Shown here piece after piece: positions 1 through 48,945 of a DNA stretch of 64,000 nucleotides. Origin of the DNA: Chamaelirium japonicum (Eukaryota; Streptophyta; Magnoliopsida; Liliales; Melanthiaceae). Location of the stretch: NCBI GenBank assembly GCA_947650365.1, contig CANTAL010000024.1, positions 744,001 to 808,000 on the forward strand. The letters run 5' to 3'. A program made the translations under genes and the position numbers. Numbering within the stretch: position 1 is the first letter of the stretch; every line of letters begins with the position of its first letter. Under the pieces are notes generated by a model that saw only the letters and a program-made list of their open reading frames with translations, did no database searches and was not told the DNA's origin.

Positions 1-3000
1 CATTCTATTTCATTCATACGATCCATTCTAATTCATTCATACGATCTATTCTAATTCTTTCGCACGAATGTATCCATTCTAATTCATTCGTACGATCCAT
101 TCTAATTCATTCGCACGATCCATTCTAATTCATTCATACAATCCATTCTAATTCTTTTGCACGAATGTATCCATTCTAATTCATTCGTTCGATCCATTCT
201 AATTCATTCGTACGATCCATTCTAATTCATTCGCACGATCCATTCTAATTCATGCATACGATCCAATCTAATTCATTCATACGATCCATTCTAATTCATT
301 CGCACGAATATATCCATTCTAATTCATTCGTACATGGATGAATGAATTAGAATGGATCGTGCGAATGAATTAGAATGGATCGTACGAATGAATTAGATTG
401 GATCGTATGAATGAATTATAATGGATCATGCGAATGAATTAGAATAGATCATACGAATGAATTAGAATGGATCGTACGAATGAATTAGAATGGATACATT
501 CGTGCAAAAGAATTAGAATGGATTGTATGAATGAATTAGAATGGATCGTGCGAATGAATTAGAATGGATCGTACGAATGAATTAGAATGGATACATTCGT
601 GCGAAAGAATTAGAATAGATCGTATGAATGAATTAGAATGGATCGTATGAATGAAATAGAATGAATCGTACGAATGAATTAGAAAGGATCATGCGAATGA
701 ATTAGAATGGATCGTGCGAATGAATTAAAATGGATCGTATGAATGAATTAGATTGGATCGTATGAATGAATTAGAATGGATCGTGCGAATGAATTAGAAT
801 GGATCGTACGAATGAATTAGAATGGATACATTCGTGCGAATGAATTAGAATGGATCGTATGAATGAATTAGAATCGATCGTACGAATGAATTAGAATGGA
901 TCATGCGAATGAATTAGAATAGATCGTGCGAATGAATTAGAATGGATCGTACGAATGAAATAGAATGGATTGTACGAATGAGATAGAATGGATCGTACGA
1001 ATGAATTAGAATGGATATATTCATGCGAATGAATTAGAATGGATCATATGAATGAATTAGAATGGATTCATTCGCACGAATGAATTAGAATAGATTGTGC
1101 GAATGAATTAGAATGGATCGTAGGAATGAATTAGAATGGATATATTCATGCGAATGAATTAGAATGGATCGTATGAATGAATTAGAATGGATCGTATGAG
1201 TGAATTAGAATGGATACGAAGGAATTAGAATGGACCGTACGAAGGAATTAGAATGGAGAATGGATCGAGCGAATGAATTAGAATGGATCGTGCGATAAGC
1301 ATGGATCGGACGAATGAAATAGAATAGATCGTACGGATAAATGAATTAGGATCATGCTAATGAATTAGAATGGATCATACGAATGAATTAGAATGGATCA
1401 TACTAATGAATTAGAATAGATTGTGCGAATGAATTAGAATTGATCGTACGAATGAATTAGAAAGGATATATTCGTGCGAATGAATTAGAATAGATCGTAT
1501 GAATGAATTAGATTGGATCGTATTAATGAATTAGAATGGATCGTGCGAATGAATTAGAATGGATCGTACGAATGAATTAGAATGGATAGATTCATGCGAA
1601 TGAATTTGAATGGATCGTATGAAGGAATTAGAATGGATCGTACGAAGGAATTAGAATAGATCATACGAAGAAATTAGAATGGATCGTACGAATGAATTAG
1701 AATAGATCGTATGAATGAATTAGAATGGATCGTGCGAATGAATTAAAATGGATCGTATGAATGAAATAGAATGGATCGTATGAATTAGAATGGATCGTAC
1801 GAATGAAATAGAATGGATCGTACGAATGAATTAGAATAGATTGTGCGAATGGATTAGAATGGATCATACGATTGAGTAAGAATGGATTGTACGAATGAAA
1901 TAGAATAGATCGTACGAATGAATTAGAATGGATCATGCTAATGAATTAGAATTGATCGTACGAATGAATTAGAATAGATTGTGCGAATGAATTAGAATGG
2001 ATCGTACGAATGAATTGGAATGAATACATTCGTGCGAATGAATTAGAATGGATCGTATGATTGAATTAGAGTGGATCGTGCGAATGAATTAGAATGGATT
2101 AGAATGGATCGTTTGAGTGAATGCGAATGGATCGTGCGAATGAATTAGAATGGATCGTTTGAGTGAATGCGAATGGATCGTGCGAATGAATTAGAATGGA
2201 TTGTACGAATGAATTAGAATGGATCGTACGAATGAATTAGAATGGATACATTCGTGCGAATCCATTCTATTTCATTCGTACGATCCATTCAAATTCATTC
2301 GCACGATCCATTCTAATTCATTCATACGATCCATTCTAATTCATTCGTACGATCCATTCTAATTCATTCGCACAATGTATTCTAATTCATTCGTACGATC
2401 CATTCTAATTCATTCGCACGATCCATTCTAATTCATTCATACGATCCATTCTATTTCATTCGTACGATCCATTCTTACTCATTCGTACGATCCATTCTAA
2501 TTCCTTCGTACGATCCATTCTAATTCATTCGCATGATCCATTCTAATTCCTTCGTACGATCCATTCTAATTCATTCGTACTATCCATTCTAATTCCTTCG
2601 TACGATCCATTCTAATTCATTCGTACGATCCATTCTAATTCCTTCGTATGATCCATTCTAATTAATTCGTACGGTATGATTTATTCTAATTAATTCGTAC
2701 GATTCATTCTAATTCAATCCAATCTAATTCATTCGTACGATCCATTCTAATTCATTCGTACGATTCATTCTAATTCAATCCATTCTAATTCATTCGTACG
2801 ATCCATTCCTACTCATTCGTACGATCCATTCTAATTCATTCGCACGAATGAATCCATTCTAATTCATTCGTATGATCCATTCTAATTCATTCGCATGAAT
2901 GTATCCATTCTAATTCATTCGTACGATCCATTCTATCTCATTCGTACAAACCATTCTATTTCATTCGTACGATCCATTGCAATTCATTCGCACGATCCAT

Positions 3001-4870
3001 TCTAATTCATTCGCATGATCCATTCTAATTCATTCGTACGATCGATTCTAATTCATTCATACGATCCATTCTAATTCATTCGCACGAATGTATCCATTCT
3101 AATTCATTTGTACGATCCATTCTAATTCATTCGCACAATCTATTCTAATGCATTGATACGATCCCTTCTAATTTATTCGCACGATCCATTCTAATTCATT
3201 CATACGATCCATTCTAATTCATTCATATGATCCATTCTAATTCATTCGCACGATCCATTCTTACTCATTCGTAAGATCCATTCTAATTCATTCGCACGAT
3301 CCATTCTAATTCGTTAATACGATCCATTCTAATTCATTCGCACGATCCATTCTAATTCATTCACACTCATACGATCCATTCTAATTCATTCGCACGAATG
3401 TATCCTTTCTAATTCATTCGTACGATCAATTCTAATTCATTCGCACGAATGTATCCATTCTAATTCATTCGTACATGGATGAATGAATTAGAATGGATCG
3501 TGCGAATGAATTAGAATGGATCGTACGAATGAATTAGATTGGATCGTATGAATGAATTATAATGGATCATGCGAATGAATTAGAATAGATCATACGAATG
3601 AATTAGAATGGATCGTACGAATGAATTAGAATGGATACATTCGTGCAAAAGAATTAGAATGGATTGCATGAATGAATTAGAATGGATCGTGCGAATGAAT
3701 TAGAATGGATCGTACGAATGAATTAGAATGGATACATTCGTGCGAAAGAATTAGAATAGATCGTATGAATGAATTAGAATGGATCGTATGAATGAAATAG
3801 AATGAATCGTACGAATGAATTAGAAAGGATCGTGCGAATGAATTAGAATGGATCGTGCGAATGAATTAGAATGGATCGTATGAATGAATTAGATTGGATC
3901 GTATGAATGAATTAGAATGGATCGTGCGAATGAATTAGAATGGATCGTACGAATGAATTAGAATGGATCGTTTGAATGAATTAGAATGGATCGTACTTAT
4001 GAATTAGAATGGGTCATACGAATGAAATAGAATGGATCGTACGAAGGAATTAGAAAGGATCATACAAACGAATTAGAATGGATCGTATGAATGAAATAGA
4101 ATAGATCGTACGAATGAATTAGAATGGATCGTATGAATGAATTAAATTGGATCGTATGAATGAATTAGAATGGATTGTACGAATGAAATAGAATAGATTG
4201 TACGAATGAATTAGAATGGATCGTGCGAATGAATTAGAATGGGTCGTACGAATGAATTAGAATGGATACACGATCCAGATCCATTCTAATCCATTCGCAC
4301 AATCTATTCTAATTCATTCGTAGGATCCATTCTAATTCATTACTACGATCCATTCTAATTCATTCGTACGATCCATTCTAATTCATTCGTACGATCCATT
4401 CTAATTCATTCGCACGATCCATTCTAATTCATTCATACGATCCATTCTAATTCATTCGTATGTATCCATTCTAATTCATTCATACGATCCATTCTAATTC
4501 TACGATCCATTCTTACTCATTCGTATTATCCATTTTAATTCATTCACACAAATGAATTAGAATAGATTGTGCGAATGAATTAGAATGGATCGTACGAATG
4601 AATTGGAATGGATACATTCGTGCGAATGAATTAGAATGGATCGTATGAATGAATTAGAGTGGATACATTCGTACAAATGAATTAGAATGGATCGTACGAA
4701 TGAATTAGAATGGATACATTCGTGCGAATGAATTAGAATGTATCATATGAATGAATTAGAATGGATCGTTTGAGTGAATGCGAATGGATCGTGCGAATGA
4801 ATTAGAATGGATTGTACGAATGAATTAGAATGGATCGTACGAATGAATTAGAATGGATACATTCGTGCGA
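1..4870. repeat. Array blocks 1-6
   Basis: Orientation blocks: plus 1-333, minus 334-2259, plus 2260-3473, minus 3474-4270, plus 4271-4550, minus 4551-4870. The minus runs starting near 343 and 3475 share the same order of variants (an ATTATAATGG unit, then a GTGCAAAAG unit), so one is a copy of the other about 3.13 kb away. Two tandem units with TTTGAGTGAATGCG lie at about 2110 and 2157; this variant is a useful marker elsewhere in the array. Confidence 0.9.
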
Positions 4871-7570
4871 ATCCATTCTATTTCATTCGTACGATCCATT
4901 CTAATTCATTCGCACGATCCATTCTAATTCATTCATACGATCCATTCTAATTCATTCGTACGATCCATTCTAATTCATTCGTACGATCCATTCTAATTCA
5001 TTCGCACAATCTATTCTAATTCATTCGTACGATCCATTCTAATTCATTCGCACGATCCATTCTAATTCATTCATACGATCCATTCTATTTCATTCGTACG
5101 ATCCATTCTTACTTATTGTACGATCCATTCTAATTCATTTGCACGAAGGTATCCATTCTAATTCATTCGTACTATCCATTCTAATTCCTTCGTACGATCC
5201 ATTCTAATTCCTTCGTACGATCCATTCTAATTCATTCGTACGATCCATTCTAATTCATTCGTACGATCCATTCTAATTCCTTCGTATGATCCATTCTAAT
5301 TCATTCGTACGGTATGATTCATTCTAATTCATTCGTACGATTCATTCTAATTCAATCCATTCTAATTCATTCGTACGATCCATTCTAATTCATTCGTACG
5401 ATCCATTCTAATTCATTCGTACGATTTATTCTAATTCAATCCATTCTAATTCATTCGTACGATCCATTCTTACTCATTCGTACGATCCATTCTAATTCAT
5501 TCGCACGAATGAATCCATTCTAATTCATTCGTACGATCCATTCTAATTCATACGATCCATTCTATTTCATTCATACGATCCATTTTAATTCATTCGCACG
5601 ATCCATTCTAATTCATTCATACGATCCATTCTAGTTCATTCATACGATCCATTCTAATTTCTTCGTATGATCTATTCTAATTCCTTCGTACGATCCATTC
5701 TAATTCCTTCGTACGATCCATTCGAATTCATTCGCACGAATCTATCCATTCTAATTCATTCGTACGATCCATTCTAATTCATTGGCACGATCCATTCTAA
5801 TTCATTAATACGATCCAATCTAATTCATTCATACGATCTATTCTAATTCATTCGCACGAATATATCCTTTCTAATTCATTCGTACGATCCATTCTAATTC
5901 ATTCGCACAATCTATTCTAATTCATTAGTACGATCCATTCTAATTCATTCGTACGATCCATTCTAATTCATTAGCACGATCCAAATTCATTTATCCGTAC
6001 GATCTATTCTATTTCATTCGTACGATCCATTCTTATCGCACGATCCATTCTAATTCATTCGCACGATCCATTCTCCATTCTAATTCCTTCGTACGATCCA
6101 TTCTAATTCCTTCGTATCCATTCTAATTCACTCATACGATCCATTCTAATTCATTCATACGATCCATTCTAATTCATTCGCATGAATGTATCCATTCTAA
6201 TTCATTCGTACGATCCATTCTAATTCATTCGCACAATCTATTCTAATTCATTCATACGATCCATCCTAATTCATTCGCACGAATGTATCCATTCTAATTC
6301 ATTAGTACAATCCATTCTATTTCATTCGTACGATCCATTCTTACTCATTCGTACGATCCATTCGTATCCATTCTAATTCATTCGTACGATCTATTCTAAT
6401 TCATTCATACGATCCATTCTAATTCATTAATACGATCCAATCTAATTCATTCATACGATCCATTCTAATTCATTCGTACGATCCATTCTAATTCATTCGC
6501 ACGATCCATTCTAATTCATTCGCACGATCCTTTCTAATTCATTCATACGATCCATTCTAATTCATTCGTACGATCCATTCTAATTCATTCACACGATCCA
6601 TTCTAATTCATTCGCACGAATGTATCCATTCTAATTCATTCGTATGATCCATTCTAATTCATTCACACGATCCATTCTAATTCATTCATACAATCCATTC
6701 TATTTCTTTTGCACGAATGTATCCATTCTAATTCATTCGTACGATCCATTCTATTTCATTCGTACGATCCATTCTAATTCATTCGTACAATCCATTCTAA
6801 TTCATTCGCACGATCTATTCGAATTCATTAGCACGATCCATTCTAATTCATTCGTACGATCCATTCTAATTCATTTATACGACCCAATCTTATTCATTCG
6901 TACAATCCATTCTAATTCTTTTGCACGAATGTATCCATTCTAATTCATTCGTACGATCCATTCTAATTCATTCGTATGATCTATTCTAATTCATTTGCAT
7001 GATCCATTATAATTCATTCATACGATCCAATCTAATTCATTCGTACGATCCATTCTAATTCATTCGCACGAATGTATCAACTCTAATTCATTCGTACGAT
7101 CCACTCTAATTCATTCATACATGTACGAATGAATTAGAATGGATACATTCGTGCGAATGAATTAGAATGGATCGTATGAATGAATTAGATTGGATCGTAT
7201 GCATGAATTAGAATGGATCGTGCGAATGAATTAGAATGGATCGTACGAATGAATTAGAATGGATGGAACGAATGAATTAGAATGGATACATTCGTGCAAA
7301 AGAATTAGAATGGATTGTATGAATGAATTAGAATGGATCGTGCGAATGAATTAGAATGGATAGTACGAATGAATTGGAATGGATACATTCGTGCGAAAGA
7401 ATTAGAATAGATCGTACGAATGAATTAGAATGGATCGTAAGAATGAAATAGAATGGATCGTACGAATGAATTAGAATGGATCGTGCGAATGAATTAGAAT
7501 GGATCGTACGAATGAATTAGAATGGATCGTACGAAGGAATTAGAATGGATCGTACGAATGAATTAGAAAG

Positions 7571-7765
7571 GATACATTCGAATTCATTCGTACGATCCAT
7601 TCTAATTCATTCGTACGATCCATAGTCTAATACATTCGCACGATCCATTCTAATTCATTCGCACGATCCATTCTAATTCATTCACAAAATCCATTCTAAT
7701 TCATTCTAATTTATTCGTATGTGAGTGGATCGTGTTTTTTCGTGCTAATGAATTAGAATGGTTCG
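7571..7765 (+). repeat. T6 cassette, copy 1
   Basis: A short plus block bounded by two distinctive junctions: GATACATTCGAATTCATTCG on the left, and GTGAGTGGATCGTG followed by six T and CGTGCTAATG on the right. The T run is the only homopolymer of this length in the array units. The same left and right ends occur together at five places. Confidence 0.85.
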
Positions 7766-7902
7766 TACGAATGAATTAGAATGGATACATTCGTGCGAAA
7801 GAATTAGAATGGATCGTAAGAATGAATTAGATTGGATCGTATAAATGAATTAGAATGGATCGTACGAATGAATTAGAATGGATCGTGCTAGATCGTATGA
7901 AT

Positions 7903-8308
7903 GAAATAGAATGGATCGTATGAATTAGAATGGATCGTACGAATGAAATAGAATGGATCGTACGAATGAATTAGAATAGATTGTGCGAATGGATTAGAAT
8001 GGATCATACGATTGAGTAAGAATGGATTGTACGAATGAAATAGAATAGATCGTACGAATGAATTAGAATGGATCATTCTAATGAATTAGAATTGATCGTA
8101 CGAATGAAATAGAATGGATCGTATGAATTAGAATGGATCGTACGAATGAAATAGAATGGATCGTACGAATGAATTAGAATAGATTGTGCGAATGGATTAG
8201 AATGGATTATACGATTGAGTAAGAATGGATTGTACGAATGAAATAGAATAGATCGTACGAATGAATTTGAATGGATCATGCTAATGAATTAGAATTGATC
8301 GTACGAAT
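7903..8308 (-). repeat. Local tandem duplication of about 203 bp
   Basis: The run starting at the GAAATAG unit at 7903 is repeated at 8106 with the same succession of variants: a shortened GTATGAATTAG unit, GTGCGAATGGATTAG, then ACGATTGAGTAAG. Only a few bases differ, so the duplication looks recent compared with the age of the array. Confidence 0.8.
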
Positions 8309-8627
8309 GAATTAGAATAGATTGGGCGAATGAATTAGAATGGATCGTACGAATGAATTGGAATGGATACATTCGTGCGAATGAATTAGAATGGATAGTA
8401 TGAATGAATTAGAGTGGATACATTCGTACAAATGAATTAGAATGGATCGTACGAATGAATTAGAATGGATACATTCGTGCGAATAAATTAGAATGGATCA
8501 TATGAATGAATTAGAATGGATTGTTTGAGTGAATTCGAATGGATCGTGCGAATGAATTAGAATGGATTGTACGAATGAATTAGAATGGATCGTACGAATG
8601 AATTAGAATGGATACATTCGTGCGAAT

Positions 8628-11600
8628 CCATTCTATTTCATTCGTACGATCCATTCTAATTCATTCGCGCGATCCATTCTAATTCATTCGTATGATCCAT
8701 TCTAATTCATTCGTACGATCCATTCTAATTCATTCGCACAATCTATTCTAATTCATTCGTACGATCCATTCTAATTCATTCGCACGATCCATTCTAATTC
8801 ATTCATACGATCCATTCTATTTCATTCGTACGATCCATTCTTACTCATTCGTACGATCCATTCTAATTCATTTGCACGAAGGTATCCATTCTAATTCATT
8901 CGTACTATCCATTCTAATTCCTTCGTACGATCCATTCTAATTCCTTCGTACGATCCATTCTAATTCATTCGTACGATCCATTCTAATTCATTCGTACGAT
9001 CCATTCTAATTCCTTCGTATGATCCATTCTAATTCATTCGTACGGTATGATTCATTCTAATTCATTCGTACGATTCATTCTAATTCAATCCATTCTAATT
9101 CATTCGTACGATCCATTCTAATTCATTCGTACGATCCATTCTAATTCATTCGTACGATTCATTCTAATTCAATCCATTCTAATTCATTCGTACGATCCAT
9201 TCTTACTCATTCGTATGATCCATTCTAATTCATTCGCACGAATGAATCCATTCTAATTCATTCGTATGATCCATTCTAATTCATTCGCATGAATGTATCC
9301 ATTCTAATTCATTCGTACGATCCATTCTATCTCATTCGTACAATCCATTCTATTTCATTCGTACGATCCATTCTAATTCATTCGCATGATCCATTCTAAT
9401 TCATTCGCATGATCCATTCTAATTCATTCGTACGATCGATTCTAATTCATTCATACGATCCATTCTAATTCATTCGCACGAATGTATCCATTCTAATTCA
9501 TTCGTACGATCCATTCTAATTCATTCACACAGTCTATTCTAATTCATTCATACGATCCATTCTAATTTATTCGCACGATCCATTCTAATTCATTCATACG
9601 ATCCATTCTAAATCATTCGCACGATCCATTCTTACTCATTCGTACGATCCATTCTAATTCATTCGCACGATCCATTATAATTCATTAATACGATCCATTC
9701 TAATTCATTCGCACGATCCATTCTAATTCATTCACACTCATACGATCCATTCTAATTCATTTGCACGAATGTATCCTTTCTAATTCATTCGTACGATCCA
9801 TTCTAATTCATTCGCACAATCTATTCTAATTCATTCGAATGATCCATTCTAATTCATTCGTACGATCCATTCTAATTCATTTGTACGATCCATTCTAATT
9901 CATTCGCACGATCCATTCTAATTCATTAGCACGATCCATTCTAATTCATTTGTACGATCCATTCTAATTCATTTATACGATCCAATCTAATTCATTCATA
10001 CGATCCTTTCTAATTCTTTCGCACGAATGTATCCATTCTAATTCATTCGTACGATCCATTCTAATTCATTTGCACGAAAAAACACGATCCACTCACATAC
10101 GAATAAATTAGAATTAATTAGAATGGATTGTGTGAATGAATTAGAATGGATCGTATGAATGAATTAGAATGGATCGTGCGAATGAATTAGAATGGATCGT
10201 GCGAATGAATTAGAATATGGATCGTACGAAGGAATTAGAATGGATCGTACGAATGAATTCGAATGTATCCTTTCTAATTCATTCGTACGATCCATTCTAA
10301 TTCCTTCGTACGATCCATTCTAATTCATTCGTACGATCCATTCTAATTCATTCGCACGATCCATTCTAATTCATTCGTACGATCCATTCTATTTCATTCA
10401 TACGATCCATTCTAATTCATTCATACGATCTATTCTAATTCTTTCGCACGAATGTATCCATTCTAATTCATTCGTACGATCCATTCTAATTCATTCGCAC
10501 GATCCATTCTAATTCATTCATACAATCCATTCTAATTCTTTTGCACGAATGTATCCATTCTAATTCATTCGTTCGATCCATTCTAATTCATTCGTACGAT
10601 CCATTCTAATTCATTCGCACGATCCATTCTAATTCATGCATACGATCCAATCTAATTCATTCATACGATCCATTCTAATTCATTCGCACGAATATATCCA
10701 TTCTAATTCATACGTACATGTATGAATGAATTAGAATGGATCGTACGAATGAATTAGAGTTGATACATTCGTGCGAATGAATTTGAATGGATCGTACGAA
10801 TGAATTAGATTGGACCGTATGAATGAATTATAATGGATCATGCGAATAAATTAGAATAGATCATACGAATGAATTAGAATGGATCGTACGAATGAATTAG
10901 AATGGATACATTCATGCAAAAGAATTAGAATGGATTGTATGAATGGATTAGAATGGATCGTGCGAATGAATTAGAATGGATACATTCGTGCGAATGAATT
11001 AGAATGGATCGTATGAATGAATTAGATTGGATCGTATGAATGAATTAGAATGGATCGTGCGAATGAATTAGAATGGATCATACGAATGAATTAGAATGGA
11101 TCGTTTGAATGAATTGGAATGGATCGTACTTATGAATTAGAATGGGTTATACGAATGAAATAGAATGGATCGTACGAAGGAATTAGAAAGGATCATACAA
11201 ACGAATTAGAATGGATCGTATGAATGAAATAGAATACATCGTACGAATGAATTAGAATGGATCGTATGAATGAATTAGATTGGATCGTATGAATGAATTA
11301 GAATGGATTGTACGAATGAAATAGAATTGATCGTACGAATGAATTAGAATGGATCGTGCGAATGAATTAGAATGGGTCGTACGAATGAATTAGAAAGGAT
11401 ACACGATCCAGATCCATTCTAATTCATTCGCACAATCTTTTCTAATTCATTCGTAGGATCCATTCTAATTCATTACTACGATCCATTCTAATTCATTCAT
11501 ACGATCCATTCTAATTCATTCGTACGATCCATTCTAATTCATTCGCACGATCCATTCTAATTCATTCATACGATCCATTCTAATTCATTCGCATGAATGT

Positions 11601-14594
11601 ATCCATTCTAATTCATTCGTACGAACCATTCTATCTCATTCGTACAATCCATTCTATTTCATTCGTACGATCCATTCTAATTCATTCGCACGATCCATTC
11701 TAATTCATTCGCATGATCCATTCTAATTCATTCGTACGATCGATTCTAATTCATTCATACGATCCATTCTAATTCATTCGCACGAATGAAATAGAATAGA
11801 TCGTACGAATGAATTAGAATGGATCGTGCGAATGAATTAGAATGGATCGTACGAATGAAATAGAATGGATTGTACGAATGAGATAGAATGGATCGTACGA
11901 ATGAATTAGAATGGATACATTCATGCGAATGAATTAGAATGGATCGTATGAATGAATTAGAATGGATTGTGCGAATGAATTAGAATGGATCGTACGAATG
12001 AATTAGAATGGATCGTGCGAATAAATTAGAATGGATCGTATGAATGAATTAGAATAGATTGTGCGAATGAATTAGAATGGATCATACGAATGAATTAGAA
12101 TGGATCGTGCGAATGAATTAGAATGGATCGTACGAATGAATTAGAATGGATCGTATGAATGAATTACATTGGATCGTATTAATGAATTAGAATGGATCAT
12201 ACGAATGAATTAGAATGGATTGTACGAATGAATTAGAATAGATCGTATGAATGAATTAGATTGGATCGTATTAATGAATTAGAATGTATCGTGCGAATGA
12301 ATTAGAATGGATCGTACGAATGAATTAGAATGGATAGATTCGTGCGAATGAATTCGAATGGATCGTGCGAATAAATTAGAATGGATCGTACGAATGAAAT
12401 AGAATGGATTGTACGAATGAGATAGAATGGATCGTACGAATGAATTAGAATGGATCATACGAATGAATTAGAATGGATTGAATTAGAATGAATCGTACGA
12501 ATGAATTAGAATGAATCATACCGTACGAATGAATTAGAATGGATCATACGAAGGAATTAGAATGGATCATACGAATGAATTAGAATGGATCATACGAATG
12601 AATTAGAATGGATCGTACGAATGAATTAGAATGGATCGTATGAATGAATTAGAATGGATCGTGAGAATGAATTAGAATGGATCGTACGAATGAAATAGAA
12701 TGGATTCGCACGAATGTATCCATTCTTATTCATTCGTACGATCCATTCTAATTCATTCGTACAATCCATTCTAATTCATTCGCACGATCCATTCGCATTC
12801 ACTCAAACGACCCATTCTAATTCATAAGTACGATCCATTCTAATTCATTCAAATGATCCATTCTAATTCATTCGTACGATCCATTCTAATTCATTCGCAC
12901 GAATGTATCCATTCTAATTCATTCGTACGATCCATTCTAATTCATTTGTACGAATGTATCCATTCTAATTCATTCGTACGATCCATTCTAATTCATTTGT
13001 ACGAATGTATCCTTTCTAATTCATTCGTACGATCCATTCTAATTCATTCGCACAATCTATTCTAATTCATTAGTACGATCCATTCTAATTCATTCGTACG
13101 ATCCATTCTAATTCATTCATACGATCCATTCTAATTCATTCGTACGATCCATTCTAATTCATTCGTACGATCCATTCTAATTCATTTGCACAATCTATTC
13201 TAATACATTCGTACGATCCATTTAAATTCATTCGCACGATCCATTCTAATTCATTCATACGATCCATTCTAATTCATTCGCACAAATGTATCCATTCTAA
13301 TTCATTCGTACGATCCATTCTAATTCATTTGCACAATCTATTCTAATTCATTCATACGATCCATTCTAATTTATTCGCACGATCCATTCTAATTCATTCA
13401 TACGATCCATTCTAATTCATTCATATGATCCATTCTAATTCATTCGCACGATCCATTCTTACTCATTCGTACGATCCATTCTAATTCATTCGCACGATCC
13501 ATTCTAATTCATTAATACGATCCATTCTAATTCATTCGCACGATCCATTCTAATTCATTCACACTCATACGATCCATTGTAATTCATTCGCACGAATGTA
13601 TCCTTTCTAATTCATTCGAACGATCCATTAGAATTAGAATGAATTAGAATAGATTGTGCGAATGAATTAGAATAGATCGTACGAATGAATTAGAAAGGAT
13701 ACATTCGTGCGAATGAATTAGAATCGATCGTATGAGTGTGAATGAATTAGAATGGATCGTGCGAATGAATTAGAATGGATCGTATTAATGAATTAGAATG
13801 GATCGTGCGAATGAATTAGAATGGATCGTACGAATGAGTAAGAATGGATCGTGCGAATGAATTAGAATGGATCATATGAATGAATTAGAATGGATCGTAT
13901 GAATGAATTAGAATGGATCGTGCAAATAAATTAGAATGGATCGTATGAATGAATTAGAATAGATTGTGCGAATTAATTAGAATGGATCGTACGAATGAAT
14001 TAGAATGGATACATTCGTGCGAATAAATTAGAATGGATCGTATGAATGAATTAGAATGGATCGTGCGAATGAATTAGAATGGATCGTACGAATGTATTAG
14101 AATAGATTGTGCGAATGAATTAGAATGGATCGTACGAATGAATTAGAATGGATCGTACGAATGAATTAGAATGGATCGTATGGATTAATTCGAATGGATC
14201 GTACGAATTAATTAGAATGGATCGTACTAATGAATTAGAATACATTGTGCGAATGAATTAGAATGGATCGTACGAATGAATTAGAAAGGATACATTCATA
14301 CAAATGAATTAGAATGGATCATACGAATGAATTAGAATGGATACATTTGTACAAATGAATTAGAATGGATCGTACGAATGAATTAGAATGGATACATTCG
14401 TGCGAATGAATTAGAATGGATCGTACGAATGAATTAGAATGGATCGTTTGAATGAATTAGAATGGATCGTACTTATGAATTAGAATGGGTCGTTTGAGTG
14501 AATGCGAATGGATCGTGCGAATGAATTAGAATGGATTGTACGAATGAATTAGAATGGATCGTACGAATGAATTAGAATGGATACATTCGTGAGA
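8628..14594. repeat. Array blocks 11-18
   Basis: Orientation blocks: plus 8628-10099, minus 10100-10261, plus 10262-10714, minus 10715-11407, plus 11408-11785, minus 11786-12704, plus 12705-13629, minus 13630-14594. Much of this order of blocks is repeated in the next segment (14595-19288), which makes the two higher-order copies. The T6 cassette is 5669 bp from its copy at both of its ends. Confidence 0.9.
10065..10275 (-). repeat. T6 cassette, inverted copy 2
   Basis: Reverse-complement form of the cassette at 7571: it begins with GCACGAAAAAACACGATCC and ends with GAATTCGAATGTATCC. It lies 5669 bp upstream of the next inverted copy, with the same spacing at both ends. Confidence 0.85.
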
Positions 14595-15735
14595 ATCCAT
14601 TCTATTTCATTCGTACGATCCATTCTAATTCATTCGCACGATCCATTCTAATTCTTTCATACGATCCATTCTAATTCATTCGTACGATCCATTCTAATTC
14701 ATTCGTACGATCCATTCTAATTCATTCGTACGATCCATTCTAATTCCTTCGTATGATCCATTCTAATTCATTCGTACGGTATGATTCATTCTAATTCATT
14801 CGTACGACTCATTCTAATTCAATCCATTCTAATTTATTCGTATGATCCATTCTAATTCATTCGTACGATCCATTCTAATTCATTCGTACGATCCATTCTA
14901 ATTCATTCATACGATTCATTCTAATTCTAATTCATTCCTACGATCCATTCTAATTCCTTCATACGATCCATTCTAATTCATTCGTACGATCCATTCTAAT
15001 TCATTCGCAGGATCTATTCTAATTCATTCGTACGATCCATTCTATTTCATTCATACGATCCATTCTAATTCATTCATACGATCTATTCTAATTCTTTCGC
15101 ACGAATGTATCCATTCTAATTCATTCGTACGATCCATTCTAATTTATTCGTACGATCCATTCTAATTCATTCGTACGATCCATTCTAATTCATTCGCACA
15201 ATCTATTCTAATTCATTCATACGATCCATTCTAATTTATTCGCACGATCCATTCTAATTCATTCATACGATCCATTCTAAATCATTCGCACGATCCATTC
15301 TTACTCATTCGTACGATCCATTCTAATTCATTCGCACGATCCATTCTAATTCATTAATACGATCCATTCTGATTCATTCGCACGATCCATTCTAATTCAT
15401 TCACACTCATACGATCCATTCTAATTCATTCGCACGAATGTATCCTTTCTAATTCATTCGTACGATCCATTCTAATTCATTCGCACAATCTATTCTAATT
15501 CATTCGAACGATCCATTCTAATTCATTAGTATGATCCATTCTAATTCATTCGTACGATCCATTCTAATTCATTCGCACGATCCATTCTAATTCATTCGCA
15601 CGATCCATTCTAATTCATTCGTACGATCCATTCTAATTCATTTATACGATCCAATCTAATTCATTCATACGATCCATTCTAATTCTTTCGCACGAATGTA
15701 TCCATTCTAATTCATTCGTACGATCCATTCTAATT

Positions 15736-15945
15736 CATTTGCACGAAAAAACACGATCCACTCACATACGAATAAATTAGAATTAATTAGAATGGATTGT
15801 GTGAATGAATTAGAATGGATCGTATGAATGAATTAGAATGGATCGTGCGAATGAATTAGAATGGATCGTGCGAATGAATTAGAATATGGATCGTACGAAG
15901 GAATTAGAATGGATCGTACGAATGAATTCGAATGTATCCTTTCTA
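15736..15945 (-). repeat. T6 cassette, inverted copy 3
   Basis: Nearly identical to the copy at 10065, including the odd GAATTAGAATATGGATCG unit. It is part of the higher-order duplication of this part of the array. Confidence 0.85.
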
Positions 15946-16190
15946 ATTCATTCGTATGATCCATTCTAATTCCTTCGTACGATCCATTCTAATTCATTCG
16001 TACGATCCATTCTAATTCATTCGCACGATCCATTCTAATTCATTCGTACGATCCATTCTATTTCATTCATACGATCCATTCTAATTCATTCATACGATCT
16101 ATTCTAGTTCTTTCGCACGAATGTATCCATTCTAATTCATTCGTACGATCCATTCTAATTCATTCGCACGATTCATTCTAATTCATTCAT

Positions 16191-16716
16191 ACAATCCATT
16201 CTAATTCTTTTGCACGAATGTATCCATTCTAATTTATTCGTTCGATCCATTCTAATTCATTCGTACGATCCATTTTAATTCATTCGCACGATCCATTCTA
16301 ATTCATTCATACGATCCATTCTAATTCATTTGCATGAATGTATCCATTCTAATTCATTCGTACGATCTATTCTATCTCATTCGTACAATCCATTCTATAT
16401 CATTCGTACGATCCATTCTAATTCATTCGCACGATCCATTCTAATTCATTCATACAATCCATTCTAATTCTTTTGCACGAATGTATCCATTCTAATTTAT
16501 TCGTTCGATCCATTCTAATTCATTCGTACGATCCATTCTAATTCATTCGCACGATCCATTCTAATTCATTCATACGATCCATTCTAATTCATTCGCATGA
16601 ATGTATCCATTCTAATTCATTCGTACGATCCATTCTATCTCATTCGTACAATCCATTCTATATCATTCGTACGATCCATTCTAATTCATTCGCACGATCC
16701 ATTCTAATTCATTCGT
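16191..16716 (+). repeat. Local tandem duplication of about 263 bp
   Basis: ACAATCCATTCTAATTCTTT at 16191 recurs at 16454 with the same downstream order (TTATTCGTTCG, GCATGAATGTATCC, CTATCTCATTCG, CTATATCATTCG). The matching higher-order copy near 10520 has this stretch once. The duplication therefore arose after the two larger copies separated, or was lost from the other. Confidence 0.8.
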
Positions 16717-19288
16717 ACGATCCATTCTAATTCATTCGCACGATCCATTCTAATTCATGCATACGATCCAATCTAATTCATTCATACGATCCATTCTAAT
16801 TCATTCGCACGAATGTATCCATTCTAATTCATTCGTACATGTATGAATGAATTAGAATGGATCGTACGAATGAATTAGAGTTGATACATTCGTGCGAATG
16901 AATTAGAATGGATCATACGAATGAATTAGATTGGATCGTATGAATGAATTATAATGGATCATGCGCATGAATTAGAATAGATCATACGAATGAATTAGAA
17001 TGGATCGTACGAATGAATTAGAATGGATACATTCGTGCAAAAGAATTAGAATGGATTGTATGAATGAATTAGAATGGATCGTGCGAATGAATTAGAATGG
17101 ATACATTCGTGCGAATGAATTAGAATGGATCGTATGAATGATTTAGATTGGATCGTATGAATGAATTAGAATGGATCGTGCGAATGAAGTAGAATGGATC
17201 GTACGAATGAATTAGAGTGGATCGTTTGAATGAATTAGAATGGATCGTACTTATGAATTAGAATGGGTTATATGAATGAAATAGAATGGATCGTACGAAG
17301 GAATTAGAAAGGATCGTACAAACAAATTAGAATGGATCGTATGAATGAAATAGAATACATCGTACGAATGAATTAGAATGGATCGTATGAATGAATTAGA
17401 TTGGATCGTCTGAATGAATTAGAATGGATTGTACGAATGAAATAGAATAGATCGTACGAATGAATTAGAATGGATCGTGCGAATGAATTAGAATGGGTCG
17501 TACGAATGAATTAGAATGGATACACGATCCAGATCCATTCTAATTCATTCACACAATCTATTCTAATTCATTCGTAGGATCCATTCTAATTCATTACTAC
17601 GATCCATTCTAATTCATTCATACGATCCATTCTAATTCATTCGTACGATCCATTCTAATTCATTCGCACGATCCATTCTAATTCATTCATACGATCCATT
17701 CTAATTCATTCTCATGAATGTATCCATTTTAATTCATTCGTATGATCCATTCTATCTCATTCGTACAATCCATTCTATTTCATTCGTACGATCCATTCTA
17801 ATTCATTCGCACGATCCATTCTAATTCATTCGCATGATCCATTCTAATTCATTCGTACGATCGATTCTAATTCATTCATACGATCCATTCTAATTCATTC
17901 GCATGAATGAAATAGAATAGATCGTACGAATGAATTAGAATGGATCGTGCGAATGAATTAGAATGGATCGTACGAATGAAATAGAATGGATTGTACGAAT
18001 GAGATAGAATGGATCGTACGAATGAATTAGAATGGATCGTACGAATGAATTAGAATGGATTGAATTAGAATGAATCGTACGAATGAATTAGAATGAATCA
18101 TACCGTACGAATGAATTAGAATGGATCATACGAAGGAATTAGAATGGATCGTACGAATGAATTAGATCCATTCTAATTCATTCATATGATCCATTCTAAT
18201 TCATTCGCACGATCCATTCTTACTCATTCGTACGATCCATTCTAATTCATTCGCACGATCCATTCTAATTCATTCACACTCATACGATCCATTCTAATTC
18301 ATTCGCACGAATGTATCCTTTCTAATTCATTCGAACGATCCATTAGAATTAGAATGAATTAGAATAGATTGTGCGAATGAATTAGAATGGATCGTACGAA
18401 TGAATTAGAAAGGATACATTCGTGCGAATGAATTAGAATGGATCGTATGAGTGTGAATGAATTAGAATGGATCGTGCGAATGAATTAGAATGGATCGTAT
18501 TAATGAATTAGAATGGATCGTGCAAATGAATTAGAATGGATCGTACAAAAGAGTAAGAATGGATCGTGTGAATGAATTAGAATGGATCGTATGAATGAAT
18601 TAGAATGGATCGTGCGAATAAATTAGAATGGATCGTATGAATGAATTAGAATAGATTGTGCGAATGAATTAGAATGGATCGTACGAATGAATTAGAATAG
18701 ATACATTCGTGCGAATGAATTAGAATGGATCGTATGAATGAATTAGAATGGATCGTGCGAATGAATTAGAATGGATCGTACGAATGTATTAGAATAGATC
18801 GTGCGAATGAATTAGAATGGATCGTACGAATGAATTAGAATGGATCGTACGAATGAATTAGAATGGATCGTATGAATGAATTAGAATGGATCGTACGAAT
18901 GAATTAGAATGGATCGTACTAATGAATTAGAATAGATTGTGCGAATGAATTAGAATGGATCGTACGAATGAATTAGAAAGGATACATTCGTACAAATGAA
19001 TTAGAATGGATCGTACGAATGAATTAGAATGGATACATTTGTACAAATGAATTAGAATGGATCGTATGAATGAATTAGAATGGATACATTCGTGCGAATG
19101 AATTAGAATGGATCGTACGAGTGAATTAGAATGGATCGTTTGAATGAATTATAATGGATCGTACTTATGAATTAGAATGGGTCGTTTGAGTGAATGCGAA
19201 TGGATCGTGCGAATGAATTAGAATGGATTGTACGAATGAATTAGAATGGATCGTACGAATGAATTAGAATGGATACATTCGTGCGAAT

Positions 19289-33574: not shown

Positions 33575-36188
33575 GATCATACGAAGAAATTAGAATGGAT
33601 CGTACGAATGAATTAGAATGGATCGTTTGAATGAATTAGAATGGATCGTGCGAATGAATTAGAATGGATCGTACGAATGAATTAGAATAGATTGTGCGAA
33701 TGAATTAGAATGGATCGTACGAATGAATTAGATTGGATACATTCGTACAAATGAATTAGAATAGATCGTACGAATGAATTAGAATGGATACATTCGTGCG
33801 AATGAATTAGAATGGATCATATGAATGAATTAGAATGGATCGTTTGAGTGAATGCGAATGGATCGTGCGAATGAATTAGAATGGATTGTACGAATGAATT
33901 AGAATGGATCGTACGAATGAATTAGAATGGATCGTATGCATGAATTAGAATGGATCGTGCGAATGAATTAGAATGGATCGTACGAATGAATTAGAATGGA
34001 TCATACGATCCATTCTAATTCATTCGTACGATCCATTCTAATTCATTCGCACGAATGTATCCATTCTAATTCATTCATACGATCCATTCTAATTCATTCG
34101 TACGATCCATTCTAATTCATTCGTACAATCCATTCTAATTCATTCGCACATCTATTCGAATTCATTCATACTATCCATTCTATTTCATTCGTACGATCCA
34201 TTTTAATTCATTCGCACGATCCATTCTAATTCATTCATACGATCCATTCTAATTCATTCGTACGATCCATTCTAATTTCTTCGTATGATCTATTCTAATT
34301 CCTTCGTACGATCCATTCTAATTCATTCATACGATCTATTCTAATTCTTTCGCACGAATGTATCCATTCTAATTCATTCGTACGATCCATTCTAATTCAT
34401 TCGCACGATCCATTCTAATTCATTCGTGCGAATGAATTAGAATGGATCGTAGGAATGAATTAGAGTGGATACATTCGTATAAATGAATTAGAATGGATCG
34501 TACGAATGAATTAGAATGAATACATTCGTGCGAATCCATTCTATTTCATTCGTACGATCCATTCTAATTCATTCGCCCGATCCATTCTAGTTCATTCATA
34601 CGATCCATTCTAATTCATTCGTACGATCCATTCTAATTCATTCGCACAATCTATTCTAATTCATTCGTACGATCCATTCTAATTCATTGATACGATCCAT
34701 TCTAATTCATTCGCACGATCCATTCTAATTCATTCGTACGATCCATTCTAATTCATTCATACGATCGATTGTAATTCATTCGTACGATTCATTCTAATTC
34801 ATTCGTACGATCCATTCTAATTCATTCGCACAATCTATTCTAATTCATTCGTAGGATCCATTCTAATTCATTACTACGATCCATTCTAATTCATTCATAC
34901 GATCCATTCTAATTCATTCGTACGATCCATTCTAATTTATTCGCACGATCCATTCTAATTCATTCATACGATCCATTCTAATTCATTCGCATGAATGTAT
35001 CCATTCTAATTCATTCGTACGATCCATTCTATCTCATTCGTACAATCCATTCTATATCATTCGTACGATCCATTCTAATTCATTCGCACGATCCATTCTA
35101 ATTCATTCGCATGATCCGTTCTAATTCATTCGTACGATCCATTCTAATTAGAATAGATCGTATGAATGAATTAGATTGGATCGTATTAATGAATTAGAAT
35201 GGATCGTGCGAATGAATTAGAATGGATCGTACGAAGGAATTAGAATTGATCGTACGAAGGAATTAGAATGGATAGTACGAATGAATTAGAATGGATACCT
35301 TCGTGCAAATGAATTAGAATGGATCATACGAATGAGTAAGAATGGATCGTACGAATGAAATAGAATGGATCGTATGAATGAATTAGAATGGATCGTGCGA
35401 ATGAATTAGAATGGATCGTACGAATGAATTAGAATAGATTGTGCGAATGAATTAGAATGGATCGTACGAATGAATTAGAATGGATCGTACGAATGAATTA
35501 GAATGGATCGTATGCATGAATTAGAATGGATCGTGCGAATGAATTAGAATGGATCGTACGAATGAATTAGAATGGATCATACGAAGGAATTAGAATGGAT
35601 CGTACGAATGATTTAGAAAGGATACATTCGAATTCATTCGTATGATCCATTCTAATTCCTTCATACGATCCATATTCTAATTCATTCGCATGATCCATTC
35701 TAATTCATTCGCACGATCCATTCTAATTCATTCATACGATCCATTCTAATTCATTCACACAATCCATTCTAATTCCTTCTAATTTATTCGTATGTGAGTG
35801 GATCGTGTTTTTTCGTGCTATTGAATTAGAAGGGATCGTACGAATGAACTAGAATGGATACATTCGTGCGAAAGAATTAGAATGGATCGTATGAATGAAT
35901 TAGATTGGATACATTCGTGCAAATGAATTAGAATGGATACATTCATGGGAATGAATTAGACTGGATCGTACAAAGGAATTAGAATGGATCATACGAATGA
36001 AATAGAATGGATTGAATTATAATGAATCGTACGAATGAATTAGAATGAATCATACCGTACGAATGAATTAGAATGGATAATACGAAGGAATTAGAATGGA
36101 TCGTACGAATGAATTAGAATGGATCGTACGAATGAATTAGAATGGATTGTATGAATGAATTAGAATGGATCGTACGAATGAGTAAGAA
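33575..36188. repeat. Array blocks 42-48
   Basis: A densely switching stretch. Orientation blocks: minus 33575-34004, plus 34005-34427, minus 34428-34532, plus 34533-35146, minus 35147-35630, plus 35631-35794, minus 35795-36188. The 105-bp minus block is among the shortest in the array. The switch at 35147 lies in the perfect palindrome ATTCTAATTAGAAT (35141-35154). Confidence 0.9.
35621..35840 (+). repeat. T6 cassette, copy 4
   Basis: Same sense as the copy at 7571, with both diagnostic ends. It is slightly longer, with one more unit before the GTGAGTGG end, and has a few private changes such as GCTATTGAATTAGAAGGG. Confidence 0.85.
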
Positions 36189-42300: not shown

Positions 42301-42862
42301 AATTAGAATGGATTGAATTAGAATGAATCGTACGAATGAATTAGAATGGATCGTATGAATGAATTTGAATGGATCGTACGAATGAATTAGAATGGATTGA
42401 ATTAGAATGAATCGTACGAATGAATTAGAATGAATCATACCGTACGAATGAATTAGAATGGATCATACGAAGGAATTAGAATGGATCGTACGAATGAATT
42501 AGAATGGATCGTACGAAGGAATTAGAATGGATCGTACGAAGGAATTAGAATGTATAGTACGAATGAATTAGAATGGATACCTTCGTGCAAATGAATTAGA
42601 ATGGATCGTACGAATGAGTAAGAATGGATCGTACGAATGAAATAGAATGGATCGTATGAATGAATTAGAATGGATCATGCGAATGAATTAGAATGGATCG
42701 TACGAATGAATTAGAATAGATTGTGCGAATGAATTAGAATGGATCGTACGAACGAATTAGAATGGATCGTACGAATGAATTAGAATGGATCGTATGAATG
42801 AATTAGAATGGATCGTGCGAATGAATTAGAATGGATCATATGAATGAAATAGAATGGATTCG
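39363..42862. repeat. Array blocks 52-58
   Basis: Orientation blocks: minus 39363-39478, plus 39479-39687, minus 39688-40042, plus 40043-40360, minus 40361-41179, plus 41180-41339, minus 41340-42862. Three minus-to-plus junctions here (39479, 40043, 42862) have the same form: AATGGATT, then a GCACGAATG unit, then plus units leading to CGCATTCACTCAAACG. Two other junctions in the array, at 12705 and 25634, share the start. Confidence 0.9.
41171..41385 (+). repeat. T6 cassette, copy 5
   Basis: Same sense as copies 1 and 4. Both ends and the T6 run are kept, and the ATTCTAATTTATTTGTATG approach to the right junction matches copies 1 and 4 apart from single bases. Confidence 0.85.
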
Positions 42863-45800
42863 CACGAATGTGTCCATTCTAATTCATTCGTACGATCTAT
42901 TATAATTCTTTCGTACAATCCATTCTAATTCATTCGCACGATCCATTCGCATTCACTCAAACGATCCATTCTAATTCATTCATATGATCCATTCTAATTC
43001 ATTTGCACGAATGTATTCTAATTCATTCGTATGATCCATTCTAATTCATTTGTACGAATGTATCCACTCTAATTCATTCATACGATCCATTCTAATTCAT
43101 TCGCACGAATGTATCCATTCCAATTCATTCGTACGATCCATTCTAATTCATTAGCACAATCTATTCTAATTCATTCGTACGATCAATTCTAATTCATTAG
43201 CATGATCCATTCTAATTCATTCGTACGATCTATTCTATTACATTCGTACAATCCATTCTTACTCAATCGTATGATCCATTCTAATCCATTCGCACAATCT
43301 ATTCTAATTCATTCGTACGATCCATTCTATTTCATTCGTACGATCCATTCTAATTCATACGATCCATTCTATTTCATTCATACGATCCATTTTAATTCAT
43401 TCGCACGATCCATTCTAATTCATTCATACGATCCATTCTAATTCATTCGTACGATCCATTCTAATTTCTTCGTATGATCTATTCTAATTCCTTCGTACGA
43501 TCCATTCTAATTCCTTCGTACGATCCATTCAAATTCATTCGCACGAATCTATCCATTCTAATTCATTCGTACGATCCATTCTAATTCATTCGCACGATCC
43601 ATTCTAATTCATTAATACGATCCAATCTAATTCATTCATACGATCTATTCTAATTCATTCGCACGAATATATCCTTTCTAATTCATTCGTACGATCCATT
43701 CTAATTCATTCGCACAATCTATTCTAATTCATTAGTACGATCCATTCTAATTCATTCGTACGATCCATTCTAATTCATTAGCACGATCCAAATTCATTTA
43801 TCCGTACGATCTATTATATTTCATTCGTACGATCCATTCTAATTCATTCGCACGATCCATTCTCCATTCTAATTCCTTCGTACGATCCATTCTAATTCCT
43901 TTGTATCCATTCTAATTCACTCATACGATCCATTCTAATTCATTCATACGATCCATTCTAATTCATTCGCATGAATGAATCCATTCTAATTCATTCGTAC
44001 GATCCATTCTAATTCATTCGCACAATCTATTCTAATTCATTCATACGATCCATCCTAATTCATTCGCACGAATGTATCCATTCTAATTCATTTATACAAT
44101 CCATTCTAATTCATTCGTACAATCCATTCTAATTCATTCGCACAATCTATTCTAATTCATTCATACGATCCATTCTAATTTATTCGCACGATCCATTCTA
44201 ATTCATTCTAATTCATTCGCACAATCTATTCTAATTCATTCGTACGATTAATTCTAATTCATTAGCATGATCCATTCTAATTCATTCGTACGATCTATTC
44301 TATTTCATTCGTACAATCCATTCTTACTCAATCGTATGATCCATTCTAATGAATTAGAATGGATCGTATGAGTGAATTAGAATGGATACGAAGGAATTAG
44401 AATGGATCGTGCGAATGAATTAGAATGGATACATTCGTGCGAATGAATTAGAATGGATCGTTTGAATGAATTAGAATGGAACGTACTTATGAATTAGAAT
44501 GGGTCATACGAATGAAATAGAATGGATCGTACGAAGGAATTAGAAAGGATCGTACAAACAAATTAGAATGGATCGTATGAATGAAATAGAATAGATCGTA
44601 CGAATGAATTAGAATGGATCGTATGAATGAATTAGATTAGATCGTATGAATGAATTAGAATGGATTGTACGAATGAAATAGATTAGATCGTACGAATGAA
44701 TTAGAATAGATCGTATAAATGAATTAGAATGGATACATTCGTGCGAATGATTTAGAATGGATCGTACGAATGAATTAGAATAGATTGTGCGAATGAATTA
44801 GAATGGATCATATGAATTAGAATTGATCGTACGAATGAATTAGAATGGATCATACGAAGGATTTAGAATGGATCGTACGAATGAATTAGAATGGATCGTA
44901 CGAATGAATTAGAATGGATACATTCTTGCGAATGAATTAGAATGGATCATACGAAGGAATTAGAATGGATCGTACGAATGAATTAGAATGGATCGTACGA
45001 ATGAATTAGAATGGATACATTCGTGCGAATGAATTAGAATGGATCATACGAAGGAATTAGAATGGATCGTACGAATGAATTAGAATGGATCGTATGAATG
45101 AATTAGAATGGATCGTACGAATGAATTAGAATGGATACATTCGTGCGAATGAATTAGAATAGATCATACGAATGAATTAGTGTTGATATATTCGTGTGAA
45201 TGAATTAAATTGGATAATACGAATGAGTAAGAATGGATCGTAGAATTAGAATGGATCGTATGAAAGAATTAGAATGGATACATACGAATGAATTAGAATG
45301 GATCGTATGAATGAATTAGAATGGATCGTGCGAATGAATTAGAATGGATCGTACGAATGAATTAGAATGGATCGTATGAATGAATTAGAATGGATCGTAG
45401 TAATGAATTAGAATGGATCCTACGAATGAATTAGAATAGATTGTGCGAATGAATTAGAATGGATCTGGATCGTGTATCCATTCTAATTCGTTTGTACGAC
45501 CCATTCTAATTCATTCACACGATCCATTCTAATTCATTCGCACAATCTATTCTAATTCATTCGCATGAATGTATCGATTCTAATTCATTCGTACATGTAT
45601 GAATGAATTAGAATGGATCGTACGAATGAATTAGAGTTGATACATTCATGCGAATGAATTCGAATGGATCGTACGAATGAATTAGATTAGATCGTATGAA
45701 TGAATTATAATGGATCATGCGAATGAATTAGAATAGATCATACGATTGAATTAGAATGGATCGTACGAATGAATTAGAATGGATACATTTGTGCAAAAGA

Positions 45801-48800
45801 ATTAGAATGGATTGTATGAATGAATTAGAATGGATCGTGCGAATGAATTAGAATGGATACATTCGTGCGAATGAATTAGAATGGATCGTATGAATGAATT
45901 AGATTGGATCGTATGAATGAATTAGAATGGATCGTGTGAATGAATTAGAATGGATCGTACGAATGAATTAGAATGGATCGTTTGAATGAATTAGAATGGA
46001 TCGTACTTATGAATTAGAATGGGTCATACGAATGAAATAGAATAGATCGTACGAAGGAATTAGAAAGGATCGTACAAACTAATTAGAATGGATCGTATGA
46101 ATAAAATAGAATAGATCGTACGAATGAATTAGAATGGATTGTATGAATAAATTAGATTGGATCGTATGAATGAATTAGAATGGATTGTACGAATGAAATA
46201 GAATAGATCGTACGAATGAATTAGAATGGATCGTACGAATGAATTAGAATGGATACATTCGTGCGAATTAATTAGAATGGATTGTATGAATGAATTAGAA
46301 TCGATCGTACGAATGAATTAGAATGGATCATGCGAATGAATTAGAATGGATCGTGCGAATGAATTAGAATGGATCGTATGAATGAAATAGAATGGATTGT
46401 ACGAATGAGATAGAATGGATCGTATTAATGAATTAGAATGGATACATTCATGCGAATGAATTAGAATGGATCATACGAATGAATTAGAATAGATACCTTC
46501 GTGCAAATGAATTAGAATGGATCGTGTGAATGAATTAAAATGGATCGTATGAATGAAATAGAATGGATCGTATGAATTAGAATGGATCGTACGAATGAAA
46601 TAGAATGGATCGTACGAATGAATTAGAATAGATTGTGCGAATGGATTAGAATGGATCATACGATTGAGTAAGAATGGATTGTACGAATGAAATAGAATAG
46701 ATCGTACGAATGAATTAGAATGGATCATGCTAATGAATTAGAATTGATCGTACGAATGAATTAGAATAGATTGTGCGAATGAATTAGAATGGATCGTACG
46801 AATGAATTGGAATGGATACATTCGTGCGAATGAATTAGAATGGATCGTATGAATGAATTAGAGTGGATACATTCGTACAAATGAATTAGAATGGATCGTA
46901 CGAATGAATTAGAATGGATACATTCATGCGAATGAATTAGAATGGATCATATGAATGAATTAGAATGGATCGTTTGAGTGAATGCGAATGGATCGTGCGA
47001 ATGAATTAAATGGATTGTTCGAATGAATTAGAATGGATCGTACGAATGAATTAGAATGGATACATTCGTGCGAATCCATTCTATTTCATTCGTACGATCC
47101 ATTCTAATTCATTCGCACGATCCATTCTAATTCATTCATACGATCCATTCTAATTCATTAGTTCGATCCATTCTAATTCATTCGTATGATCCATTCTAAT
47201 TCATTCGCACAATCTATTCTAATTCATTCGTACGATCCATTCTAATTCATTCATACGATCCATTCAATTTCATTCGTACGATCCATTTAATTTCATTCGT
47301 ACGATCCATTCTTACTCATTCGTACGATCCATTCTAATTCATTTGCACGAAGGTATCCATTCTAATTCATTCGTACTATCCATTCTAATTCCTTCGTACG
47401 ATCCATTCTAATTCCTTCGTACGATCCATTCTAATTCATTCATACGATCCATTCTAATTCATTCGTACGATCCATTCTAATTCATTCATACGATCCATTC
47501 TAATTCATTCGTACGATCCATTCTAATTCATTCGTACGATCCATTCTAATTCATTCGCACGAATGGATCATATGAATGAATTAGAATGGATCGTATGAAT
47601 GAATTAGAATGGATCGTGCGAATAAATTGGAATGGATCGTATGAATGAATTAGAATAGATTGTGCGAATGAATTAGAATGGATCGTACGAATTAATTAGA
47701 ATGGATACATTCGTGCGAATGAATTAGAATGGATCGTATGAATGAATTAGAATCGATCGTACGAATGAATTAGAATGGATCATGCGAATGAATTAGAATG
47801 GATCGTGCGAATGAATTAGAATGGATCGTACGAATGAAATAGAATGGATCGTACGAATGAGATAGAATGGATCGTACGAATGAATTAGAATGGATACATT
47901 CATGCGAATGAATTAGAATGGATCATACGAATGAATTAGAATGGATTCATTCGTGCGAATGAATTAGAATGGATCGTACGAATGAGTAAGAATGGATCGT
48001 ACGAATGAATTAGAATGGATTGAATTAGAATGAATCGTACGAATGAATTAGAATGGATCGTACGAATGAATTAGAATGGATCGTACGAATGAATTAGAAT
48101 GGATTGAATTAGAATGAATCATACGAATGAATTAGAATGAATCATACCGTACGAATGAATTAGAATGGATCATACGAAGGAATTAGAATGGATCGTACGA
48201 ATGAATTAGAATGGATCGTACGAATGAATTAGAATGGATCGTACGAAGGAATTAGAATGGATACATTCGTGCGAATGAATTAGAATGGATCGTATGAATG
48301 AATTAGAATCGATCGTACGAATGAATTAGAATGGATCATGCGAATGAATTAGAATGGATCGTGCGAATGAATTAGAATGGATCGTACGAATGAAATAGAA
48401 TGGATTGTACGAATGAGATAGAATGGATCGTACGAATGAATTAGAATGGATACATTCATGCAAATGAATTAGAATGGATCATACGAATGAATTAGAATGG
48501 ATTCATTCGTGCAAATGAATTAGAATGGATCGTACGAATGAGTAAGAATGGATCGTACGAATGAATTAGAATGGATTGAATTAGAATGAATCGTACGAAT
48601 GAATTAGAATGGATCGTACGAATGAATTAGAATGGATCGTGCGAATGAATTAGAATGGGTCGTACGAATGAATTAGAATGTATACATGATCCTGATCCAT
48701 TCTAATTCATTCGCACAATGTATTCTAATTCATTCGTAGGATCCATTCTAATTCATTACTACGATCCATTCTTATTCATTCATACGATCCATTCTAATTC

Positions 48801-48945
48801 ATTCGTACGATCCATTCTAATTCATTCGCACGATCCATTCTAATTCATTCATACGATCCATTCTAATTCATTCGTATGTATCCATTCTAATTCATTCATA
48901 CGATCCATTCTAATTATACGATCCATTCTTACTCATTCGTATTAT
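42863..48945. repeat. Array blocks 59-65 and array end
   Basis: Orientation blocks: plus 42863-44349, minus 44350-45471, plus 45472-45596, minus 45597-47073, plus 47074-47563, minus 47564-48687, plus 48688-48945. The switch at 44350 is an inverted repeat with perfect 10-bp arms CCATTCTAAT/ATTAGAATGG around two bases. The minus block at 47564-48687 contains two tandem copies of a segment of roughly 0.5 kb, starting near 47700 and 48250 and marked by GAATCGATCG and AATGAGATAG units. The array stops after CTCATTCGTATTAT. Confidence 0.9.

Follow-up and report, generated by a model that had tools for sequence, protein, structure and literature searches.

The 64,000-nucleotide stretch analysed here (the window) very probably covers the edge of a block of Chio1/Chio2, from the lily relative Chionographis japonica (Chamaelirium japonicum in NCBI naming) or a very close relative, in which the strand flips derive from few junctions that were then multiplied. 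Chio1/Chio2 is the CENH3-bound centromere satellite of the holocentromere of this species (PMC10264360). The satellite changes strand 64 times within the window. To count these as 64 separate inversions is an overcount, as most of the switch points recur as near-identical copies.

Strand blocks and monomers of the array

Strands were labelled by running a circular two-strand profile model, consisting of the 23-bp unit and a background state, on the window. Within 1–48,941 this resulted in 65 blocks, of which 33 are forward and 32 reverse, separated by 64 direct switches of strand, with 24,755 bp on the forward strand (the CATTC strand) versus 24,186 bp on the reverse strand. The blocks are 87 to 2,266 bp long (mean 753, median 643), the first being truncated by the window edge. 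Tandem Repeats Finder reported a period of 23 (together with 28, 46, 69 and longer multiples) over the same interval. The strand-flipping feature is thus confirmed, and the preliminary description, which gave about 64 flips, about 65 blocks of 100 to 2,200 bp and a spacing of about 750 bp, was accurate almost to the number. It had placed the array at 1–48,945; an array of about 49 kb is indeed present, with its right end at 48,941 and its left end outside the window.

1..48941, both strands: Chio1/Chio2-type satellite array, 65 alternating-strand blocks, cut at left by the window edge (profile model and Tandem Repeats Finder)
48684..48941, forward strand: last block, the right edge of the array, with non-satellite sequence beyond (profile model and sequence reading)

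Strand annotation of the units, which had been proposed as a check, shows alternating orientation and was robust, with 64 direct switches at each of the switch penalties 1e-3, 1e-4 and 1e-5. At 1e-7 only 58 direct switches were obtained (72 segments) because some cross short stretches left unassigned; with 1e-10 and 1e-14 every change of strand passed through such a stretch (130 segments, 0 direct switches) and the strand totals were nearly the same. The reverse complement of the window also gave 64 switches, with strand totals shifted by about 220 bp, and individual switch positions are therefore accurate to a few bases only. With the same profile model the repeat was absent from three out of three first-order Markov control sequences, and re-orienting all reverse blocks resulted in one block and no switches.

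Measured from anchor to anchor, 1,605 of 1,964 intervals are 23 bp long and 231 are 28 bp long, while the remaining 128 vary in length. The 23-bp units show a mean identity of 0.936 to their consensus, CCATTCTAATTCATTCGTACGAT. The 28-bp consensus, CCATTCTAATTCATTCGCACGAATGTAT, differs from it by five additional bases and a single T-to-C change. In a separate count of 23- and 28-bp monomers, 28-mers made up 112 of 927 forward and 120 of 912 reverse monomers. Ninety-one monomer variants are common to both strands and represent 85% of the forward and 79% of the reverse 23/28-bp monomers. Their mean coverage, 82.0%, compares with 83.3% (sd 0.6) for random splits of the blocks, so that sharing between the strands is slightly lower than between random halves. 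Hence, a single family occupies both strands, which differ slightly at most, and the earlier view of one family inverted on itself as opposed to two interleaved satellites is upheld.

The 9-mer TTCGTACGA occurs 319 times in the array and its reverse complement 308 times; neither occurs in the flank. When a dimer of the 23-mer was folded as single-stranded DNA, one 8-bp TCGTACGA stem joined the neighbouring monomers (−6.2 kcal/mol, z −4.05). The same stem was less exceptional in the trimer (z −2.02).

Correspondence with Chio1/Chio2

Published Chio1 and Chio2 have monomers of 23 and 28 bp which differ by 5 bp and one substitution; the 23-bp monomer is dominant, the 28-bp variant less abundant, and the two are intermingled (PMC10264360). 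An 8-bp dyad forms a hairpin between adjacent monomers, with three dyad symmetries per monomer in Chio1 and four in Chio2 (PMC10264360). The layout is given as ‘forward- and reverse-oriented arrays’, from a HiFi assembly (PMC10264360), and in a later paper as a ‘frequently alternating orientation’ (PMC12722358), which also assigns the 9-mer TTCGTACGA to Chio. The array in the window is classed as Chio because it matches in monomer lengths and differences (dominant 23-bp and minor 28-bp monomer, 5 bp plus one substitution), in carrying the 9-mer on both strands, in the 8-bp hairpin linking neighbouring monomers and in its alternating strands. No contradiction was found in the account given in PMC10264360. 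Given its length, its 9-mer and 8-bp hairpin, and the 5-bp and 1-bp differences from the 28-mer, the 23-mer is probably identical to Chio1 in all of its 23 letters. By analogy with the Chio papers, a centromere role and CENH3 binding would also apply to the array in the window. Chio units are described as megabase-scale and CENH3-binding, with 7–11 per chromosome (PMC10264360).

That the array is instead an undescribed satellite of some other plant, with no more than a resemblance to Chio, is highly improbable given the joint match of the 23/28-bp lengths, the 5-bp plus 1-bp difference, the 9-mer, the hairpin, the intermingling and the alternating strands. Chama, the dyad-rich centromere satellite of Chamaelirium luteum in the sister genus, also has TTCGTACGA. 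However, its monomers are of 60 bp, its arrays keep one consistent orientation and include long higher-order repeats, and it is named as a contrast to Chio (PMC12722358). The window array does not fit the Chama type; its monomers are of 23 and 28 bp and its orientation switches 64 times. Human satellites 2 and 3 are likewise CATTC-rich, and 1,738 reads matching both strands were set aside there as possible inversion breakpoints (PMC4022460), but these satellites belong to human heterochromatin and derive from an ancestral pentamer, without a 23/28-bp monomer (PMC4022460). Among the literature examined, no system was closer than Chio.

The preliminary description knew of no described family with such an architecture, a view that a previously described family with alternating layout would overturn. 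Chio1/Chio2 is such a family (PMC10264360, PMC12722358), and the view falls. The alternating layout is already described and is ordinary for C. japonica. The window is thereby assigned to an unusual centromere already in the literature, and the claim of a new satellite architecture no longer stands. What is added here is the typing of junctions at base level, which is incremental. The word ‘junction’ is absent from the main text of PMC10264360, and typing of individual switch points does not appear under that word there.

Recurrence and spread of the switch junctions

The 50 bp around each switch were clustered at similarities of 0.9, 0.8 and 0.7, with both orientations compared, for reverse-to-forward (RF, n=32) and forward-to-reverse (FR, n=32) switches. 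At 0.9 and 0.8, RF switches fell into 9 and 6 clusters and FR switches into 20 and 17, compared with means of 31.9 and 27.8 (RF) and 31.8 and 28.4 (FR) in 60 sets of 32 random joins; the minimum for random joins at 0.8 was 22 clusters of 32. At 0.7 (RF 2, random 12.6; FR 14, random 12.8) clustering no longer distinguishes FR from chance. Thirty rounds of jittering, with shifts of at most 4 bases per switch point, gave 9–12 RF and 19–25 FR clusters at 0.9, and 6–7 and 16–18 at 0.8. At 0.9 and 0.8 the cluster counts are below those of random joins, and many of the switches are thus copies of each other. In total, the 64 switches represent 23 junction types at 0.8 (6 RF and 17 FR). The main recurring ones are as follows.

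2146..2345 (switch 2245): RF_A, the commonest RF junction, example; 16 copies, identical membership at 0.9 and 0.8
RF_A copies, one orientation: 2245, 4856, 8611, 14580, 19272, 20964, 24821, 28775, 30569, 34518, 47059
RF_A copies, opposite orientation: 12716, 25643, 39487, 40051, 42870
4168..4367 (switch 4267): RF_B junction, example; 8 copies at 0.8
RF_B copies: 4267, 11400, 17521, 22278, 38335, 48683; inverted 32034, 45473
7469..7822: RF_C + FR_B module, example; two switches 154–177 bp apart; 5 copies
RF_C/FR_B copies: 7568/7722, 35618/35795, 41167/41344; inverted 10265/10098, 15934/15767

At 0.8, three types (RF_A 16, RF_B 8 and RF_C 5 copies), each present in both orientations, account for 29 of the 32 RF switches, and five types of 8, 5, 3, 2 and 2 copies for 20 of the 32 FR switches. 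RF_C and FR_B, as typed at 0.8, co-occur in five out of five copies, and at 0.9 each divides by orientation (3 + 2). Six of the eight RF_B members cluster at 0.9, where 38335 and 48683 drop out. Singletons at 0.8 (12 of 32 FR, 3 of 32 RF) speak for independent small inversions of a formerly head-to-tail array; as an account of all 64 switches this is nevertheless very unlikely, in view of the eight recurrent types and of random joins that averaged 27.8 and 28.4 clusters and never fell below 22.

The likeness between copies extends over distances that differ between types, against a background of 0.83–0.88 per bin from 60 in-phase pairs. In RF_A the copies resemble each other over about 100 bp of the left arm (0.96 and 0.91 per 50 bp) and 100–150 bp of the right (0.94, 0.95, 0.88), then fall to background. 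The corresponding distances are 50 bp left and about 300 bp right for RF_B, some 300 bp or longer in each direction for RF_C, and about 400 bp left and about 150 bp right for FR_B. The eight members of FR_A show likeness over about 100 bp of the left arm but only background values on the right (0.85, 0.87), which makes a common origin of these members less sure.

On a larger scale, a multi-block segment carrying flips is present twice.

8612..13636: multi-block segment, duplication copy 1, carries flips
14581..18351: multi-block segment, duplication copy 2

The order of junction types in the two segments matches at seven of eight junctions. Three blocks have the same length in both segments (167, 681 and 385 bp) and show identities of 100%, 97.4% and 98.2%, respectively; the remaining blocks differ in length. 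The shared order and the near-identical blocks indicate that flips travel with segmental duplication, as in a higher-order repeat. A BLAST self-comparison (at least 93% identity, 40-base seeds; 60 of 83 matches listed) served for examples and not for counts, because the 97.4% identical 681-bp pair was absent among the matches listed.

In view of this single window, a limited number of inversion junctions may have arisen first, either through breakage and template switching or through recombination of monomers that lie on opposite strands. These junctions would then have been multiplied by segmental duplication and conversion over hundreds of bp to kb, and homogenisation within the array would have held both strands to one sequence family.

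The excess of FR over RF types suggests, as a hypothesis, a more specific route in which the array spreads by head-to-head modules. An RF_A cassette of about 200–250 bp (16 copies, both orientations) would be inserted or copied into either strand, and each insertion would carry in one unchanged RF junction and make one new FR edge. This would explain the 6 RF versus 17 FR types. We consider this route possible but doubtful, as FR_A (8) and FR_B (5) recur too, the 8612–13636 duplication copies RF and FR switches equally, and a single window was studied. If true, a defined inverted-repeat cassette would be the amplifying unit of the Chio centromere. The typed switch points offer a handle on the growth of strand-flipping centromere arrays. 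Junction recurrence and the RF/FR asymmetry can be checked across the 100 published Chio units and set beside the sister species, in which the satellite arrays reportedly keep a consistent orientation.

False palindromic switch points might also result from the assembly or from reads with missed adapters or both strands, and in Ensete a few Nanopore reads showing reversals of tandem arrays were regarded as possible artefacts (PMC9055855). Such errors would yield near-identical mirror arms. When 150-bp arms were compared at 58 of the 64 junctions (the other six have a neighbouring block of <150 bp), own arms were no more alike than those of other junctions (FR 0.804 vs 0.817; RF 0.832 vs 0.848). 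Only one of the 58, among 29 testable FR junctions, exceeded the 95th percentile of other-junction arms. It lies in the following stretch.

1..663: self-palindromic stretch; forward block 1–333 repeats, in inverted form, the beginning of block 334–2245

The minus-strand self-match of this stretch (BLAST, 668 columns, 95.8% identity, 10 gap columns) was judged too diverged for a read artefact. As mixed Chio orientation had also been reported from a HiFi assembly (PMC10264360), we give an artefactual origin of the switches hardly any weight. The arm test likewise rejects, in general, that adjacent blocks are mirror copies of one another, as expected from inverted duplication, the exception being 1–663.

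A hairpin hinge, with snap-back switching exactly at the dyad, was unsupported as a general rule since tight loops are not enriched at switches. Loops of up to 4 bases were found at 5 of 32 FR and 1 of 32 RF switches, compared with 17.2% and 18.5% of random joins (2,000 each), so that FR agrees with the expected share and RF falls short of it. In the 40 bases at the switch, mirror identity was lower than in random joins for FR (0.713 vs 0.790) and higher for RF (0.838 vs 0.796), although the RF values are not 32 independent ones because most RF junctions are copies. Tight palindromes at single junctions were seen at 35149 (loop 0) and at 11785, 34431 and 44350 (loop 2).

The right flank

The satellite gives way to non-satellite sequence from 48,942 onwards. 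No RNA gene was detected in the window at the gathering threshold of Rfam, and a Pfam scan of 10 of the 56 open frames in the right flank gave no match at the curated cut-off. The flank contains the following repeats and AT-rich islands.

49768–50013: GC-rich 43-bp minisatellite, about 5.7 copies, just beyond the array edge (Tandem Repeats Finder)
50141–64000, both strands, in runs: second repeat family (GTGGAGTTTTGGAATTTAGATTCC...), from matches to an 83-bp query
54400–55399 and 59900–60399: extremely AT-rich islands, GC 4–12% in 500-bp windows

The AT-rich islands sit within a 2.7-kb direct duplication (53956–56652 and 59318–61977, 85% identical). The second repeat family gave 43 matches to the 83-bp query, 27–87 bp long and 85–96% identical, in the strand order --+----+----+-++++-----++++-++++++-----++++. 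Flipping here therefore extends beyond the Chio satellite. A 16-mer, CACGTTATCAGCACGA, recurs on both strands (63108 on the forward strand; 58302, 59512 and 61658 on the reverse). It is reminiscent of a retrotransposon primer-binding site, and by this likeness the repeat in the flank could represent a non-autonomous element.
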